Assembly (NCBI GenBank): GCA_902780535.1
Contig: CACZFT010000059.1
Location: 1 to 37,450 of the forward strand
DNA: 37,450 bases
Direction: 5' to 3'
From: an uncultured Selenomonas sp.
GTDB lineage: Bacteria > Bacillota > Negativicutes > Selenomonadales > Selenomonadaceae
Of the stretch, positions 4,709 to 12,028 are shown one piece after another (the stretch's first letter is position 1; every line of letters starts with the position of its first letter). The notes under the pieces were generated by a model. The model did not search any database. It saw nothing but the letters and a program-made list of their open reading frames with translations, and had not been told where the DNA came from. The position numbers and the translations under genes were made by a program.

Positions 4709-5215
4709 TCAATCGTTGTCTTTCGTCATGAATTCCTGTAATGCTGCCAGCCTCGGGTCGGGGACGAACGTATTACAGCCACAATCGCCGTGGTTGAGAT
4801 TCGCACCGCAGACGGGGCAGAGCCCTTTGCAGTCGGGCTTGCAGATATTGCTGAGCGGCTGTGCCGCCAGAAGCGTATCACGAACGAGCTCGTCGAGCTC
4901 GATGGTATCGCCTTCAAACGCATTTGCGTCTTCGTCATCCGAAACGGCCCCTTGCCGGAACGTCTCGCAGAACGCATGTTCCTGCGGTTCCGTGCACTCT
5001 TCGAGGCATCGGTTGCAAACGAAATGCTTCGTCGCACGAATCACGCCTTCGACGCGGTAGCCCGCACCCGTGTTCGTGACCGTGCCCGCAACCTCGATGG
5101 GCCCTTCGAAATCATAATCATCCGCCGTGGCATCAATCTTCGCCGCAACCGTCGTGAACGAAAACGGGAGATCTTTTCCAAGTCCGGAAGCAAGTTCAGC
5201 AATATGAATATGCAT
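4709..5215 (-). CDS. yceD: YceD/DUF177 family protein (23S rRNA accumulation protein family)
   Basis: A 168-residue protein of the YceD family, needed for normal 23S rRNA accumulation in E. coli and nearly always next to rpmF. Cys-rich: CNRC mid-protein and CKPDCKGLCPVCGANLN near the C-terminus, the classic DUF177 metal-binding-like ending. The start is the ATG giving MHIHIAELA, with GGAG 9 bases upstream; the longer frame from 5230 begins inside the ribosome-binding site. A near-perfect promoter lies immediately upstream, so this is the first gene of yceD-rpmF. Confidence 0.92.
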   Translation of the reverse strand: MHIHIAELASGLGKDLPFSFTTVAAKIDATADDYDFEGPIEVAGTVTNTGAGYRVEGVIRATKHFVCNRCLEECTEPQEHAFCETFRQGAVSDDEDANAFEGDTIELDELVRDTLLAAQPLSNICKPDCKGLCPVCGANLNHGDCGCNTFVPDPRLAALQEFMTKDND

Positions 5216-5232
5216 TAGCATCAACTCCATCC

Positions 5233-5261
5233 ATTATAGCGGCCGCCTTTTCGGTTGTCAA
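5233..5261 (-). promoter_or_regulatory. consensus promoter of yceD-rpmF
   Basis: Minus strand TTGACA (5256-5261), 17-base spacer, TATAAT (5233-5238): an exact match to the housekeeping consensus. Transcription should begin about 11 bases before the chosen yceD ATG. Confidence 0.88.
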
Positions 5262-5299: not shown

Positions 5300-6580
5300 T
5301 CATGCATCGCCGAGGCGGAAGGCGATTTCCCGGAGCGCGGCCTCGCGCACGCGCTTCCACGGCACGTCATGCGCCTCGGCGCAGGCACGGCAGTCTTCGA
5401 ATTCCGGCTGCACGTTGACGATCTCGCCCTCGTAGGCCGCAATCTTCACGCGCACCGTACCGTACTTCGTCTCTGCCTGCGCCACGCGGCGGTCACACTC
5501 CACACGCTCGTCAACTTTCGTCACGCGCAGGCCGATTGTCGTCGTCTCGCGGAAGAGAATTTGCTGGCAGGTGGCGCGTTGTGCGCCCGTCACGAGCACG
5601 GAAAGTTCGTGCGCCGGACGATTTTTCTTCATATATATAGGCGTCACCCAGACGTCGAGTGCCCCGGCCGCGAGCAGCTTGTCAAAGAGGTATCCATAAA
5701 TCTGCGGCGTCATGTCGTCGATGTTCGCCGCGAGGATATATTTGTCCTCCGCGCTGCTGTCGTCCGGCTGCTGCTGTTCCTCCATCTCGCCGAGATAGAG
5801 GCGCAGGACGTTCGGCAATCCCTCGTTGTCCCGCGTTCCAGCGCCATAGCCGATGGCCTCGGCGCGAAATGATGCAGGGCGCACAAGAGAGATGTTCGCG
5901 AACGCCCGCACAACGGCCGCGCCCGTCGGCGTCGTGAGCTCGACGGGCGCGCCTGCCGCATACGTCGGCCAGTCCTTCAGAAGCTCGGCGACAGCAGGCG
6001 CAGGCACGGGCATCGTGCCATGCGCACAGCGCACGAAGCCGCTGCCGACATTGACGCGGCCGGCATAGACCTCGGTGATGCCGAGCACGTCAAGGCAGAT
6101 GGCGACGCCGCAGATGTCCACGATGGAATCGGCCGCACCGACTTCATGGAACGTGACCTCGTCAGCAGGGTGTCCATGCACATGACCCTCGGCCTCGGCG
6201 AGCACCTTGAAGATGCGGAGCGAAATCGCCTTGGCGCCATCCGAGAGCGACGAGCCCTCAATCATCGCACGGATATCGCGCATCGCGCGATGTTGGTGGG
6301 CGTGATGATCATGCTCATGGTGCTCTTCATGCGCGGAATGCGAATCATGGGCAAGGTCATGAAATGCTGTCTGCTCTTCCTGCACTTCCACATCAACATA
6401 CGTGGCCGCGATGCCATTTTTCTTGACCTGCGAGACTTTGAGCTCACACTCCTGCATGACGGGGAGCTTCGCGAGCTCGCGGCGAAGGACATGTTCATCC
6501 ATGCCCGCCGCGAGGAACGCCCCGAGCAGCATGTTGCCGCTCAGGCCGGAAAATGCATCGAGATAGATTGCTTTTGCCAT
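5300..6580 (-). CDS. larC: nickel-pincer cofactor cyclometallase LarC
   Basis: LarC inserts nickel into pyridinium-3,5-bisthiocarboxylic acid mononucleotide, the last step of the nickel-pincer nucleotide made for lactate racemase and related enzymes. The 426-residue protein opens MAKAIYLDAFSGLSGNM, the family hallmark, and has a His-rich stretch at about residues 75-97 (HDSHSAHEEHHEHDHHAHQH), a likely nickel-handling loop. Unlike Lactobacillus, where two pieces are joined by programmed frameshifting, both parts are in one continuous frame here. It follows larB by 10 bases. larE and larA are not in the window. Confidence 0.93.
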   Translation of the reverse strand: MAKAIYLDAFSGLSGNMLLGAFLAAGMDEHVLRRELAKLPVMQECELKVSQVKKNGIAATYVDVEVQEEQTAFHDLAHDSHSAHEEHHEHDHHAHQHRAMRDIRAMIEGSSLSDGAKAISLRIFKVLAEAEGHVHGHPADEVTFHEVGAADSIVDICGVAICLDVLGITEVYAGRVNVGSGFVRCAHGTMPVPAPAVAELLKDWPTYAAGAPVELTTPTGAAVVRAFANISLVRPASFRAEAIGYGAGTRDNEGLPNVLRLYLGEMEEQQQPDDSSAEDKYILAANIDDMTPQIYGYLFDKLLAAGALDVWVTPIYMKKNRPAHELSVLVTGAQRATCQQILFRETTTIGLRVTKVDERVECDRRVAQAETKYGTVRVKIAAYEGEIVNVQPEFEDCRACAEAHDVPWKRVREAALREIAFRLGDA

Positions 6581-6590
6581 AATTTTCCTC

Positions 6591-7358
6591 TCAGTTCAGG
6601 CGGTTGATCTTGCTCGCGAGCACGCCCGCACCGAAGCCGTTGTCGATGTTGACGACGCTGACGCCCGCGGCGCAACTCGAAAGCATCGAGAGCAGCGCCG
6701 TGACGCCATGAAGCGCCGCACCGTAGCCGACGCTCGTCGGCACGGCGATGACAGGGCCGCTCGCAAGGCCGCCGATGACGGAGGCCAGCGCCCCCTCCAT
6801 GCCTGCGATGCAGATGATGACGCGCGCGCGTCGGATCTCGTCTTCGTGCGCCGCGAGACGGTGGATGCCCGCCACACCGCAGTCATAGAGCGTCTTGACG
6901 CGGTTGCCATAGAGCTCGGCCGTCAGCCGCGCCTCGGCCGCGACGGGGATGTCGCTCGTGCCCGCCGTGATGATGAGGATTTCATGCGCCTCGTCCTCCG
7001 GCGGCGCACCGACGGGCTTTGCCCGGCGAATATAGATGGCGCGGGCTTCCTCGTCGTACTCTGCCTCAGGCATCTCTGCTTTCACGAAATCATATTGCTC
7101 GCTGCTCGCCCGCGTCGCAAGCAGGCTGCCGTCGCTCGCTGCTTCGAGCGACTGGAAGATGGCGAGCACCTGCTCCTTTGTCTTGCCTGCCGCATAGATG
7201 ACTTCGGGAAAGCCCTGCCGCGCCTCGCGGCTGTGATCGACATTCGCGAAGCCCATGTCCTCAAAAGCAGCCTTGCTGAGAGATTCGGCGGCATCCTCTT
7301 TCGTGATGCCGCCGTCCTTGTACGCCTCAAGGAGGCGCAGAATATCGTTTTTCGTCAT
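6591..7358 (-). CDS. larB: pyridinium-3,5-biscarboxylic acid mononucleotide synthase LarB
   Basis: LarB carboxylates and hydrolyses nicotinic acid adenine dinucleotide to start nickel-pincer nucleotide synthesis. The C-terminal half is PurE-like: GTSDIPVAAEA, YDCGVAGIHRL, IAGMEGALASVIGGL and PTSVGYGAALHG are all typical. 255 residues, the usual family length. The stop of the preceding coiled-coil gene is one base from this ATG (TGACATG), so the two are probably translationally coupled, and larC follows directly. Confidence 0.93.
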   Translation of the reverse strand: MTKNDILRLLEAYKDGGITKEDAAESLSKAAFEDMGFANVDHSREARQGFPEVIYAAGKTKEQVLAIFQSLEAASDGSLLATRASSEQYDFVKAEMPEAEYDEEARAIYIRRAKPVGAPPEDEAHEILIITAGTSDIPVAAEARLTAELYGNRVKTLYDCGVAGIHRLAAHEDEIRRARVIICIAGMEGALASVIGGLASGPVIAVPTSVGYGAALHGVTALLSMLSSCAAGVSVVNIDNGFGAGVLASKINRLN

Positions 7359-7359
7359 G

Positions 7360-8247
7360 TCACTCCGCCTGCTGCGATGCCGGAGCTGCTGCCGGCACCT
7401 GTGCCTGCTGGGCCGTGACGGCCTGGACGGCAGCCGGGGCAGGCGCTGCCGCCATTTCCTCGACCGGTACGTCGGCAGCCGCTGCGACCTCGGCCGCGCT
7501 GCGGTTCATCTGCTGCTTCGCCTGACGCAGCGAGCTTGCCGCCTGGTCGACCGCCTTTGCCGACTGCTGCAGGTAGTCACCAGACTGCTGGGAAATCTGC
7601 TGCAGATAGTCCACATACTGCTGTGCCGCCTGCTGCAACGAATCGACGGACTGCTGGACGGCTTTCTGCACGAAATCCGCCGACTGCTGTGCCGCCTGTG
7701 CCGTATCCGTGACATGCCCGATGAGCTGATCGAAGACCTGATTGACATAGGCATCCGTCGTGTCGCGCTGCTGCTTCATTTCCTCTTTCGTGCGCTCGAG
7801 GATTTCGCGGCGCTTCTGCTCCGCCTGCTCGACGAGCACACGGGCCTTTTCTTCCGACTGCTTCTGGATTTCCTTGGCCTTTTCCTTCGCCTCGGCGACG
7901 ATGGCTTCCTTTTCCACGAGGTCGGCCGCATAGTCCTTGGCTTTCGTGATGATGCTGTCCGCTTCGCGGTGCGCTTCCTCGATGATCTGGCTCTCATTCG
8001 CCATGATTTCCTTGGCGTGGTTCAGTTCGAGCGGCAAGTCCTGACGCAGTTCTTCGACGAGGTGGATGAGGTCGTTCTCATCGATCATGCTCTTGCCCGT
8101 CAGGGGCACATGCGAGGCGTTGACGACGAGATTCTCCACTTCGTCGAGCGTGCGCTCGACGCGCGACGTCGCATTCCGGCTTGAGGTGTTGCGGTTTGCG
8201 GCATCGCGGGCCGCAGCCGTCCGTTTGGCAACCTTTTTAGAAGACAT
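7360..8247 (-). CDS. coiled-coil protein with hendecad repeats (unknown function)
   Basis: A 295-residue charged protein I cannot assign to a function. Visible parts: basic Ser/Arg/Asn-rich N-terminus (1-32), a long helical, Glu/Lys-rich region resembling DivIVA or F-type ATPase b-subunit coiled coils (about 60-165), then four consecutive 11-residue repeats at 187-230 of the form QQSxDxLQQxx, and an Ala/Pro/Gln-rich low-complexity tail from about 255. It has no signal peptide or membrane segment. It lies between coaD and larB, one base from larB. A filament-forming or membrane-surface scaffold role is possible but is inference only. Confidence 0.85.
   Translation of the reverse strand: MSSKKVAKRTAAARDAANRNTSSRNATSRVERTLDEVENLVVNASHVPLTGKSMIDENDLIHLVEELRQDLPLELNHAKEIMANESQIIEEAHREADSIITKAKDYAADLVEKEAIVAEAKEKAKEIQKQSEEKARVLVEQAEQKRREILERTKEEMKQQRDTTDAYVNQVFDQLIGHVTDTAQAAQQSADFVQKAVQQSVDSLQQAAQQYVDYLQQISQQSGDYLQQSAKAVDQAASSLRQAKQQMNRSAAEVAAAADVPVEEMAAAPAPAAVQAVTAQQAQVPAAAPASQQAE
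7558..7689 (-). repeat. four tandem 33-bp (11-residue) coding repeats
   Basis: Within the coiled-coil gene, residues 187-230 are QQSADFVQKAV, QQSVDSLQQAA, QQYVDYLQQIS and QQSGDYLQQSA. The 11-residue period places hydrophobic residues on one stripe of an untwisted helix. Confidence 0.85.
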
Positions 8248-8285: not shown

Positions 8286-8770
8286 TCATCGCTTCTTATC
8301 ATTTTCAGCAGCAATTCTTTCATTCACTGCGTGTTCAACACATGATGGCACGAGCCCGTGCACGTCCCCCGGACGCCCGACGAGCTCACAAACGAATAGG
8401 ACGGATTCGTGAGCAGGAAGACCGTCTCGATGGAATCGTCGAGATGATGCAGGATGTGCGCTTCGTTTTCCTCGTATTCGAGATCCTTGACGGAGCGCAC
8501 GCCGCGCACGATGATGTTCGCGTGGATCTTTTCCATATAATCCGTCAGCAGGCCCGAGAACGCATCGACGCGGACGTTCGGCAGATGCGACGTCGCTTCT
8601 TCGAGAAAGCGCTTGCGCTCCTCGATGGAGAAGAATCCTTCCTTGCGCACGTTGTGAAAGACGCAGATGACGAGTTCGTCAAAGAGACGGCTCGCGCGCT
8701 CGAAGATATCGACATGGCCGATGGTCACGGGGTCGAAGCTGCCCGAACAGACAGCGATGCGGTGGCTCAT
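8286..8770 (-). CDS. coaD: phosphopantetheine adenylyltransferase, frameshifted near the 3' end
   Basis: CoaD adenylylates 4'-phosphopantetheine, the penultimate step of CoA synthesis, and is essential in most bacteria. The N-terminal SGSFDPVTIGHVD nucleotide-binding motif and the later RGVR and YSFVSSS motifs are clear. After SSSGVR the open frame leaves the family sequence and stops at 8324. In the next frame the expected ending (GDVHGLVPSCVEHAVNERI) continues to a stop at 8286. Compared with B. subtilis CoaD about six residues are also missing at the junction, so a loss of about 19 bases near 8360-8370 fits best. Start overlaps the rsmD stop (ATGA). Confidence 0.88.
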
Positions 8771-9342
8771 ACGGAATCCTCCCCAACATAGCTCTTTTTC
8801 TGGAAAAAGCTCAGCTGCGTCGTCCTGCCATAGCGGCGATGATCGACGCGGACGATCGACGAAAGCTCCGGCACATCGTCCTCGTCCCCGCCGTGCTCGA
8901 CAACGAGGATGGCATCTTCTGCAAGCAGGCTCCCTTTGTCAAAGACAGAGAGCGCCCGCTGCCAGAGTCCTTTGTGATATGGCGGGTCGCAGAAGACGAG
9001 ATCGAATGTGCGCCCCTGATGCTCGAGCCGCGAAAGGCTCGCAAAAGCATCACCTGCGAGGACTTCCGCCTCCTGCTCGAAATGGCAGTGGCGGATGTTT
9101 TCCCGGAGGATGTCCGCCGTCGACTGGTCGAGGAAGACGGCAGACCGCGCGCCGCGCGAGAGCGCCTCGAGGCCGAGGCTGCCCGTGCCTGCAAAGACGT
9201 CGAGCACCGTGCGGCCGGAAACCATGGAGCCCAGGATGCTGTAAAGCGACTCCTTCACGCGGTCAGACGTCGGCCGCGTCGTCTCCATGCCTTTCGGCGC
9301 CTTGAGCCGCGCCCCGCGCGCCCGTCCCGTGATGATGCGCAT
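8767..9342 (-). CDS. rsmD: 16S rRNA (guanine966-N2)-methyltransferase
   Basis: Methylates G966 of 16S rRNA in the small subunit using S-adenosylmethionine. The 191-residue Rossmann-fold protein begins MRIITGRARG, has the SAM-binding DVFAGTGSLGLEALSRG motif and the catalytic DPPY motif of N-methyltransferases. GAGAGGAGG precedes the ATG. Its stop overlaps the coaD start, the conserved rsmD-coaD pair, and it appears to head the rsmD-coaD-coiled-coil-larB-larC operon. Confidence 0.95.
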   Translation of the reverse strand: MRIITGRARGARLKAPKGMETTRPTSDRVKESLYSILGSMVSGRTVLDVFAGTGSLGLEALSRGARSAVFLDQSTADILRENIRHCHFEQEAEVLAGDAFASLSRLEHQGRTFDLVFCDPPYHKGLWQRALSVFDKGSLLAEDAILVVEHGGDEDDVPELSSIVRVDHRRYGRTTQLSFFQKKSYVGEDSV

Positions 9343-9472: not shown

Positions 9473-11161
9473 ATGCATCGCATTTTTCGCGCCCTGCTGC
9501 TCGTTCTCGTCCTTGCAGCAGTTCTCGCCTTCTACCATTTTCTCCTGCATCCTGCCGCCGCGCTCACGCCCGTGTCGCCTGTGCGCACGTTTTCTTCGCG
9601 CGTCGTGCTCGTGCCGCTTGACAGCAGGCCGCCGTGCCGCCAGCAGGTCGCCGACCTCGGCCGCATCGCAGGGCTCGATGTCGTGACGCCGCCTGCAGAA
9701 TGCATGGACTACTATTCTCAGCCTGGTGATACGCGCGCCATGCAGGACTGGCTCATGACGGCTGTGCAGCCCGGCGACGCCGTCATCCTTTCCATCGACC
9801 AGCTGCTCTACGGCGGCCTGCTCGCCGCGCGCGAAAAGCAGGCGCCGGAAGATCTGCAGGACGCGCTCGTCGATTACCTTCGCGCCCTGCGTGCCGCGCA
9901 TCCCGGCGTCCCCATCTACGCCTTCTCCATCCTGCCGCGCCTCACGCCGCAGGACACGATTGACGGCTATGACGAACGCCGCGCCCTCATCGCTTACTCG
10001 CGCCTCGTCGGGCGCAGAGCCGCCGGCCTCGCCATTGACGAAGACGAGCTCGCGCGCCTGCGCGCCAAGATTTCCGACCAGAGCCTCGCAACGTATGAAG
10101 GCCATTTCCGCGAGAACGCCACGCTCAATGAAAAGCTCGTCGCACTGACGAAGGACGGCACGCTCACGCGCCTCGTGCTCGGGCAGGATGATGGCGAGCC
10201 CTACGGCATCCCGAACATCGAGAAAGCCGCCATCCAGCAGACGATGGCAGAGCTCGGCCTCACGGAACAGCAGTGCTTCCTCACGCACGGCGCCGACGAA
10301 ATCGCCCAGACACTGCTCGCGGCCTACGCCTGCGAGCGTGCGGGCTACCATCCGCGCGTCGCCATCGCCGCGACCGACCCGAAAGCGAAGATGCGCGTCA
10401 TGCCCTATATGGCCGTTGATTGCGAAACGGTCGCCGAAGAAAAAATCCGCCTGCTCGGCGGCACCGTCGCGGATGCCCAAGAAGACGCCGACCTCACGCT
10501 CTTCCTCTCGGCAAATGACAGCGACGAAGGCTCGATGGACACGCGGCAGGCCGCTGCAGACTTCCTCACGGCCTGCGTCGTATCGCCAGACAAAGCGGGC
10601 ACGCCTGTCGCGCTTGTCGACCTCAGCAAGCATTTCGACGCCGCCGAGCCGCTGCTGCCGCTGCTCCTGAGCCGTGACTTCCCCGTCACGCGCCTCGCCG
10701 CCTATGCGGGCTGGAACACGACGAGCAACGCCATCGGCACGGCGCTCTCCGCTGCGGCCATCCGCGAAGCTGCCGCGGCCCAGCCGCTCGACGCGGACGA
10801 AGCCCGTGCCGTCGCCGCTGAGAGCGCCCGCTTCCTCCAGAACCGCGTGCTCGAAGACTACTTCTATCTCAAAGCCGACATCGATCCCATCAACCACGCG
10901 CTGAAGAAAGCCGACTACCGCAACACCTCCGACCTCGACCTCGAGCACAACCACCGCTGGGCGACGGCCATGCTCCAGAAAAAGCTCCAGCTCCAGACCA
11001 TCCTCTACAAGCACTCGAAGAGCCTGCGCGCCCCGTTCCCCGTCCCGCAGACGGGCGAAGAGCTCGCCATCTACGACCTGCGCACCGATACGAGCTTCCC
11101 CTGGCCGCGGACGTTCGAAATCTATCTCGAAACCGAGCCGTATTTTGCGCTCGCAAAATAA
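9473..11161 (+). CDS. DUF4127 family protein, membrane-anchored or exported
   Basis: A 562-residue protein of the DUF4127 family, whose function is not known to me. Family hallmarks seen: VVLVPLDSRPPC near residue 44, SIDQLLYGGLLAAR, LVLGQDDGEPYG mid-protein and AGWNTTSNAIGTAL in the C-terminal half. An uncleaved signal anchor or signal peptide occupies residues 4-25 (Leu/Val-rich), so the main part is likely outside the cytoplasmic membrane. AAACGGGAGG precedes the ATG. It is the only protein gene on the plus strand in the first half of the window and stands alone, immediately before tRNA-Gln. Confidence 0.87.
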   Translation: MHRIFRALLLVLVLAAVLAFYHFLLHPAAALTPVSPVRTFSSRVVLVPLDSRPPCRQQVADLGRIAGLDVVTPPAECMDYYSQPGDTRAMQDWLMTAVQPGDAVILSIDQLLYGGLLAAREKQAPEDLQDALVDYLRALRAAHPGVPIYAFSILPRLTPQDTIDGYDERRALIAYSRLVGRRAAGLAIDEDELARLRAKISDQSLATYEGHFRENATLNEKLVALTKDGTLTRLVLGQDDGEPYGIPNIEKAAIQQTMAELGLTEQQCFLTHGADEIAQTLLAAYACERAGYHPRVAIAATDPKAKMRVMPYMAVDCETVAEEKIRLLGGTVADAQEDADLTLFLSANDSDEGSMDTRQAAADFLTACVVSPDKAGTPVALVDLSKHFDAAEPLLPLLLSRDFPVTRLAAYAGWNTTSNAIGTALSAAAIREAAAAQPLDADEARAVAAESARFLQNRVLEDYFYLKADIDPINHALKKADYRNTSDLDLEHNHRWATAMLQKKLQLQTILYKHSKSLRAPFPVPQTGEELAIYDLRTDTSFPWPRTFEIYLETEPYFALAK

Positions 11162-11430: not shown

Positions 11431-11745
11431 TTACAAGCATTTTGCAACCATCGCCGGATCGTTGATGGCTAAATCCAACAGGCGGCTGAGAATACCTGTA
11501 TAGCCCCTTCCAAGCTTCTTCGCTTTTGCCAGTGTGTCCGGCGACACGCGGATAGAAACGAGCTGTTTCTTTCGCTCCGCACGTTGCTTGGCAGCGATGC
11601 GTGCGAACTCCTCATACTGTTTTTCCGTGAGTTCCGGGCAATCTTCATCATAGGTGATAGGCATGGACGCAGCGCGGCGGATGCGTTTGCGTTGCTCTTC
11701 TGTCGGCTTCTGCCCTGATCTCACAACCATTTTATGAATGGCCAT
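11431..11745 (-). CDS. brnA: BrnA-type antitoxin
   Basis: A 104-residue antitoxin that neutralises BrnT and represses the pair. C-terminal ribbon-helix-helix-like region: KQLVSIRVSPDTLAKAKKLGRGYTGILSRLLDLAI, preceded by the typical charged linker containing DEDCPELTEKQYEEF. The ATG giving MAIHKMVV is chosen because AGGAGG lies 7 bases upstream; the open frame from 11769 would begin before this site. It overlaps the end of brnT by 14 bases, as usual for toxin-first BrnTA operons. The RHH strand (VSIRVS) should contact DNA at the operator upstream of brnT. Confidence 0.88.
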   Translation of the reverse strand: MAIHKMVVRSGQKPTEEQRKRIRRAASMPITYDEDCPELTEKQYEEFARIAAKQRAERKKQLVSIRVSPDTLAKAKKLGRGYTGILSRLLDLAINDPAMVAKCL

Positions 11746-12028
11746 AGTACAACCTCCTCTCACGCGCATTCGCTGTTCTTGCGGATATCAGTCGAATCGA
11801 TTCATGCTCCGGACGTTCCGTAAAGACAACGAACAAAACATCTTCCACCTTGCCAATCGTGATGTATCGGTCTTCTTCATCACTATGCAGCTCGTCAAAC
11901 ATCTCAATCCGTGCTTCATCTCCGAAAATCAATCCGGCATCCTCAAAGCCGATGCCATGTTTTCGCCGATTGATTTCATTCTTTTCGTCATCCCATTCGA
12001 TAAGACGACCATCGATTTCTTCTATCAT
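11732..12028 (-). CDS. brnT: BrnT-type ribonuclease toxin
   Basis: A 98-residue toxin of the BrnT family (RelE-like fold RNase that blocks growth by cutting RNA). Recognised from the N-terminal IEWDDEKNEINRRKHGIGFEDA block, the DEEDRYITIGKVEDVLFVVFTER strand pair and the C-terminal RLISARTANARERRLYY ending, all diagnostic. Family length is about 90-100. The only usable start is the ATG at 12026-12028. The promoter -10 box ends six bases before this codon, so the message may be leaderless. Lower GC than neighbouring genes and position between two tRNA-Gln half repeats suggest acquisition. Confidence 0.9.
   Translation of the reverse strand: MIEEIDGRLIEWDDEKNEINRRKHGIGFEDAGLIFGDEARIEMFDELHSDEEDRYITIGKVEDVLFVVFTERPEHESIRLISARTANARERRLYYGHS

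Follow-up and report, generated by a model that had tools for sequence, protein, structure and literature searches.

SepIVA (M. tuberculosis Rv2927c, M. smegmatis MSMEG_2416), a protein of cell division and envelope growth, has so far been described in actinobacteria, and a 2020 paper obtained no significant blastp matches to it outside Actinomycetales. The mycobacterial protein is described as septal and FtsQ-interacting (PMC7654743, PMC11571769); it is also called the spatial regulator of MurG and was pulled down with Wag31/DivIVA, in an account that leaves open whether the contact is direct or indirect (PMC12097788). In Streptomyces, SepIVA is reported at hyphal tips together with a two-hybrid interaction with DivIVA, and the S. 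venezuelae protein is characterized as dispensable, tip-located and not septal (PMC11571769). Its function thus varies within the actinomycetes themselves, and whether it is essential in M. smegmatis is a matter of dispute (PMC7654743). GpsB, Scy and FilP are further coiled-coil envelope scaffolds described with DivIVA (PMC11571769), and we liken them to the protein studied here by description only. Our search of the open-licence literature found no localization or partner evidence for a member from Bacillota.

We analysed a 37,450-nucleotide stretch of DNA from an uncultured Selenomonas sp. (hereafter the window), which encodes a coiled-coil rod protein homologous to SepIVA, in a gene family that sits after rsmD-coaD and before yceD-rpmF-plsX (Table 1). 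We put the probability at roughly 60% that this protein is orthologous to SepIVA and acts in Negativicutes as a coiled-coil scaffold of the envelope-growth and division machinery; its function in these processes is what we infer from the homologue. Like SepIVA, it combines an N-terminal domain with a coiled coil, and its gene precedes yceD and, in the majority of the lineages surveyed, follows coaD. The two also differ: the mycobacterial protein has 245 amino acids and a longer rod with a period of 3.65, whereas the surveyed Negativicutes open reading frames have a median of 175 amino acids, and the window protein carries two extra elements, a basic N-terminus and a glutamine-rich array of 11-residue units.

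Table 1. Features of the SepIVA-family gene, its product and its neighbours in the window
Feature	Positions	Strand	Basis
SepIVA-family coiled-coil protein, 295 aa	7360..8247	-	ORF, SepIVA profile, BLASTP
aa 1-28, basic N-terminal extension	8164..8247	-	7 K/R, 1 D/E; without counterpart in the other 23 A1 rows
aa 29-84, conserved SepIVA-type N-terminal domain	7996..8163	-	A4 profile search, hhalign 96.4%
aa 85-184, core coiled coil	7696..7995	-	Alignment, hydrophobic period, predicted helix
aa 185-228, four Q-rich 11-residue units	7564..7695	-	In 3/41 Negativicutes loci
aa 229-257, end of predicted helix	7477..7563	-	Structure prediction
aa 258-295 and stop, Ala/Pro/Gln-rich tail, predicted disordered	7360..7476	-	pLDDT <50
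larB	6591..7358	-	NF033503 and neighbourhood survey; lineage-specific, between scaffold gene and yceD
larC	5300..6580	-	TIGR00299 and NF052512
Consensus sigma-70-like promoter match, annotated yceD start	5233..5261	-	12/12 matches
yceD, conserved distal neighbour	4709..5230	-	PF02620
coaD	8324..8770	-	TIGR01510, model positions 1-132 of 155; alignment with 11 relatives
rsmD	8767..9342	-	TIGR00095, PF03602

Homology to SepIVA and relation to DivIVA

Homology to SepIVA is well supported by profile comparison. A Negativicutes profile built from 24 sequences (A1) retrieved SepIVA as the best match in all seven Mycobacterium genomes searched (E 6.3e-15 to 1.5e-17), with the best match outside the SepIVA gene at E 0.02. 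A second profile (A4), restricted to the non-coiled N-terminal 58 residues of 23 sequences, served as a control against coiled-coil composition and again found SepIVA, as the only significant match, in 7/7 genomes (E 1.7-3.1e-9; next match 0.83). Aligned by hhalign against a mycobacterial SepIVA alignment (A3, from ten of 80 Mycobacterium loci; A6 and A7 drew on eleven), A1 reached 97.9% and A4 96.4%, and the profile representatives of A4 and SepIVA share 36% identity over 56 columns of the N-terminal domain. Scored directly, the window protein matched the SepIVA profile at 39.6 bits (E 9.4e-11 at Z=5000) and gave no match to the DivIVA profile; BLASTP against mycobacterial SepIVA returned 51.6 bits over residues 29-156. 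The SepIVA profile outscored the DivIVA profile in all 80 non-mycobacterial orthologues, a set preselected by A1 (41 Negativicutes, 19 Bacillota, 20 Actinomycetota). We identify the mycobacterial query as SepIVA because its gene order, gene-yceD-rnc-fpg, matches the M. tuberculosis order Rv2927c-Rv2926c-rnc-fpg (PMC2734929), in which Rv2927c is described as the SepIVA homologue (PMC7654743). This order is complete in 5 of 9 named Mycobacterium maps, and yceD was found by profile in 9/9.

The reverse search, with A3 at E 0.1, was weaker, giving a match in 44 of 60 class genomes and none in 16. The match included the N-terminal domain in 39 of the 60; in the 18 of these 39 that the survey of homologues also covered, it fell on the gene identified in that survey. 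In five genomes (the window's own, G022, G048, G049 and G265) only another coiled coil was found, which in G265 is DivIVA. The window's own gene was thus unlisted despite its direct score, and a first-look filter may be the cause. The forward search and direct scoring are what carry the SepIVA identification. For the window protein, none of the Pfam or NCBIfam models scored above its cut-off; PHROGs gave no match, Foldseek gave no informative one, and PDB sequence and fold searches returned generic helices, unrelated chains or nothing.

The sequence-only reading had called the coiled coil DivIVA-like. This holds weakly: the best DivIVA-type match is to NCBIfam Wag31, at 18.5 bits against a cut-off of 260, and the layout of an N-terminal element followed by a coiled coil is common to both families. 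It fails for the N-terminal domain, which matches SepIVA and not DivIVA. Pfam DivIVA (PF05103) gave no match to the window protein even with a threshold of E 1, and the N-terminal domains could not be aligned by hhalign, where A1 reached 2.7% and A4 0.1% against DivIVA (represented by only four sequences). Among relatives, sub-cut-off Wag31 matches occur in 22 of 24 A1 members, DivIVA Pfam matches at E 0.01 in 11 of 44 (best 3.7e-9), and one relative, G050, exceeds the PF05103 cut-off at 31.2 bits; these matches leave room for a distant kinship. DivIVA itself has a gene of its own in 53 of the 60 class genomes, including the window's own. Two near-complete genomes (G011 and G013) retain the scaffold gene and have no PF05103 match, which argues against DivIVA as an obligate partner.

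Architecture of the window protein

Conservation in the alignment runs from about residue 29 to about residue 155-190; outside this part, sequence varies in the N-terminal extension, array and tail. The conserved N-terminal domain consists of a short helix, a VPLTGKSMIDEND loop and the start of a long helix. AlphaFold2, run with a 12-row alignment, predicted helix 3-44, loop 45-56 and helix 57-257 (pLDDT 74); for SepIVA, also with 12 rows, it predicted helix 2-17, two short strands (20-22, 28-30) followed by long helices (pLDDT 79). The two models agree in layout, and the strands or N-terminal hairpin of SepIVA are not seen in the model of the window protein, both models coming from shallow alignments. 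Together with the hydrophobic period of residues 73-158, which peaks at 3.56, the long predicted helix supports the earlier description of the protein as a coiled-coil scaffold.

That description had also included four near-identical hendecad units. The array is real: the units AAQQSADFVQK/AVQQSVDSLQQ/AAQQYVDYLQQ/ISQQSGDYLQQ are identical at 21 of 33 positions when compared at lag 11, where 2,000 shuffles of residues 166-245 reached at most 14, and TRF detects a 33-bp period in the DNA. 'Near-identical' was an overstatement, with 5-8 of 11 residues identical in pairwise comparison, and for residues 181-236 the hydrophobic period has its peak at 3.59, a value intermediate between those of a heptad and a hendecad. 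Because it contains 15 glutamines in 44 residues and carries a net charge of -3, the array appears better adapted to self-association than to electrostatic contact with acidic membranes; it probably lengthens or strengthens the C-terminal rod in the three species of the window's genus that have it.

These species (the window and loci L031 and L032, from genomes G001 and G006) account for every Negativicutes locus with the array, 3 of 41, and we therefore rejected the idea that hendecad repeats define the gene. Lag-11 similarity was not found in the same-genus species G003, G004 and G005, each of which has a homologue. Across the family, 11-residue self-similarity (z >5) occurs in 14 of 89 orthologues, seven of them mycobacterial. 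Core hydrophobic periods in Negativicutes, Bacillota and other actinobacteria peak at 3.52-3.53 and not at 3.67, and we therefore do not claim a family-wide hendecad rod; this analysis covered 39/41, 15/19, 12/20 and 9/9 sequences, the remainder failing the start-setting pattern or being too short.

Gene neighbourhood, proposed role and competing explanations

Of 60 genomes that range from the window's genus up to its class and include the window's own, 58 have a homologue. At E 0.001, A1 matched 164 of 199 genomes in the window's phylum and 190 of 198 genomes in the phylum of Mycobacterium. We surveyed neighbours at 41 Negativicutes loci (the window and 40 further genomes, out of 57 that had a match), 19 other Bacillota loci (drawn from 159 genomes outside the class, mostly the best-scoring ones), 20 Actinomycetota loci from 18 genomes, and nine of 80 Mycobacterium loci. 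Counts come from cleaned profiles and leave out L201; at L250 and L251 coaD is present yet uncounted, owing to an over-extended start of the scaffold ORF. The names recG, rpmF, plsX, fapR, ackA, ylbJ, ylbM, smc and fpg are our own map labels, for several of which representatives were confirmed by Pfam (fapR, rpmF, smc and fpg are not among these).

Upstream of the gene, rsmD was present in 40/41 Negativicutes, 19/19 Bacillota and 18/20 Actinomycetota loci, with yceD downstream within the fetched stretch in 22/41, 12/19 and 18/20, respectively. An immediately upstream coaD was found at all 41 Negativicutes loci and at 15/20 Actinomycetota loci. Among the other Bacillota, coaD stands between rsmD and the gene in 8/19 loci; in the remaining 11 (L184, L185, L188, L189, L191, L192, L194, L195, L197, L199 and L200; seven read individually), rsmD directly precedes the gene with no room for coaD. 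ylbJ is present in 18 of the 19. The Actinomycetota order, rsmD-coaD-[gene]-yceD-rpmF with recG upstream in 17/20, agrees with that in Bacillota, and the nine named Mycobacterium loci have yceD downstream in all cases and coaD 2.0-4.7 kb upstream in five. Further members of the block at some loci are FakA-like, degV, plsX, rnc, ackA, patatin and ylbM genes. Two Actinomycetota genomes carry second SepIVA-type genes (L246 and L256) with no coaD, rsmD or yceD nearby.

Thirty-five phylum genomes had no match to A1. Among the 20 of these that we examined, 18 have coaD adjoining rsmD, and 16 have ylbJ directly behind coaD, leaving no room for the gene, so that it is cleanly missing from a fixed position. 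At E 10 no scaffold match was listed for the stretches of these 20 genomes.

In the proposed role, the protein would form coiled-coil oligomers, as mycobacterial and Streptomyces SepIVA do, and its N-terminal helix-loop-helix (VPxTxK) may contact the membrane or a partner. At the septum or the young pole, the rod could then recruit proteins of envelope synthesis, probably together with DivIVA. By analogy with the actinomycete work, the protein would be a membrane-proximal scaffold near the septum or pole and a partner of DivIVA and MurG.

The sequence-only reading had instead proposed a scaffold for synthesis of the nickel-pincer cofactor or of CoA, which we now regard as very improbable. It drew on the one-base gap to larB and is in keeping with the coaD found upstream throughout Negativicutes, but the neighbour survey largely refutes it: at most loci the gene is not next to larBC and lacks the repeats. 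Just 13 of the 41 Negativicutes loci have larB within 150 bp downstream; three more have it at another place in the fetched stretch (one at 179 bp), and in 25 it was not found in the stretch; two loci have larC without larB, and no larB was found at the 39 loci of other clades (0/19 Bacillota, 0/20 Actinomycetota). In the window's genome, the best match to TIGR00268, which we take to be LarE, lies on another contig (G000:C21:17976-18755), so larBC and larE appear to be split. On our reading the association with lar genes is a neighbourhood accident, larB-larC having come to lie downstream in one lineage, where they would be only co-transcribed, and larBC and the repeats are local additions. 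The link to CoA is wide but positional, and the 11 Bacillota loci without room for coaD argue against a required role in CoA synthesis. We rejected a scaffold for either pathway on this distribution. A stalk subunit related to ATP-synthase b or to V-ATPase is less probable still: weak profile matches to b, E and H subunits reach up to 22 of 24 A1 members (Pfam ATP-synt_B, 19 of 24), but for the window protein and one other member all are below curated cut-offs, in that other member they start at residue 29 or later, and no ATP-synthase gene is among the labelled neighbours. With the window protein below the curated cut-off or unmatched, we rejected this assignment.

Two other explanations weigh more, though both are unlikely. 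The better of them holds that the Bacillota protein shares its ancestry with SepIVA and has an unrelated job, for example as a generic membrane-curvature or nucleoid scaffold. Functions already differ between Mycobacterium and Streptomyces in the published description (PMC11571769), and the genomes lacking the gene, 35 of 199 with 16 of 20 leaving no space after coaD, also speak for it; against it stands the N-terminal domain, whose conservation (61% mean column identity, 23 sequences) suggests that a partner or surface has been kept. Somewhat less probable is an accessory role in ribosome biogenesis, with the coiled coil organizing or tethering that process. The most constant neighbours, rsmD (16S rRNA methylation), yceD (23S rRNA accumulation) and rpmF (L32), would fit, as would the direct adjacency to rsmD in the coaD-less Bacillota loci. 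The block also contains coaD, plsX, FakA-like and recG genes, however, so that order alone does not point to ribosomes, and published work on the homologue SepIVA places it in division and the growth of the envelope (PMC7654743, PMC11571769, PMC12097788).

What surprises is the breadth, and hence the likely age, of the SepIVA family, which looks older and wider than reported. The same gene block is found at the 60 examined loci of the window's phylum. We tentatively suggest, as an idea less likely than not, that SepIVA is an ancient scaffold common to Bacillota (diderm Negativicutes included) and Actinomycetota rather than an invention of actinomycete polar growth, and that its retention in a block with membrane-lipid-precursor genes (coaD, plsX, fapR and, at some loci, FakA-like/DegV) may couple the supply of lipids or precursors to the places where the envelope grows. 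The homology gives a widespread unnamed protein a role that can be tested and makes SepIVA biology accessible in tractable Clostridia and Negativicutes.

The window locus and its flanking genes

Pfam and NCBIfam identities give the order rsmD-coaD-[gene]-larB-larC in the window. The earlier reading of a gene one base from larB, inside a coaD-larBC operon, was correct; the frame encodes 295 residues on the minus strand, with coaD and rsmD upstream and larB then larC downstream. The operon probably also includes rsmD. A sigma-70-type promoter match at all 12 positions ends two bases before the annotated start of yceD; it suggests, without being proof, that yceD-rpmF is a separate transcription unit, and the likely operon is therefore rsmD-coaD-gene-larB-larC. 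The true start of yceD may lie further downstream than annotated. The coaD product has 148 amino acids, with a C-terminal end out of register relative to 11 relatives, which reflects either a draft error or a real lesion. Next to rsmD, on the other strand, lies a gene for a DUF4127 protein (9473-11161, +) whose cluster has 31 members, all at Negativicutes loci, making it a stable and unexplained neighbour. A BrnT/BrnA toxin-antitoxin pair (11431-12028, -) adjoins a tRNA-Gln gene.
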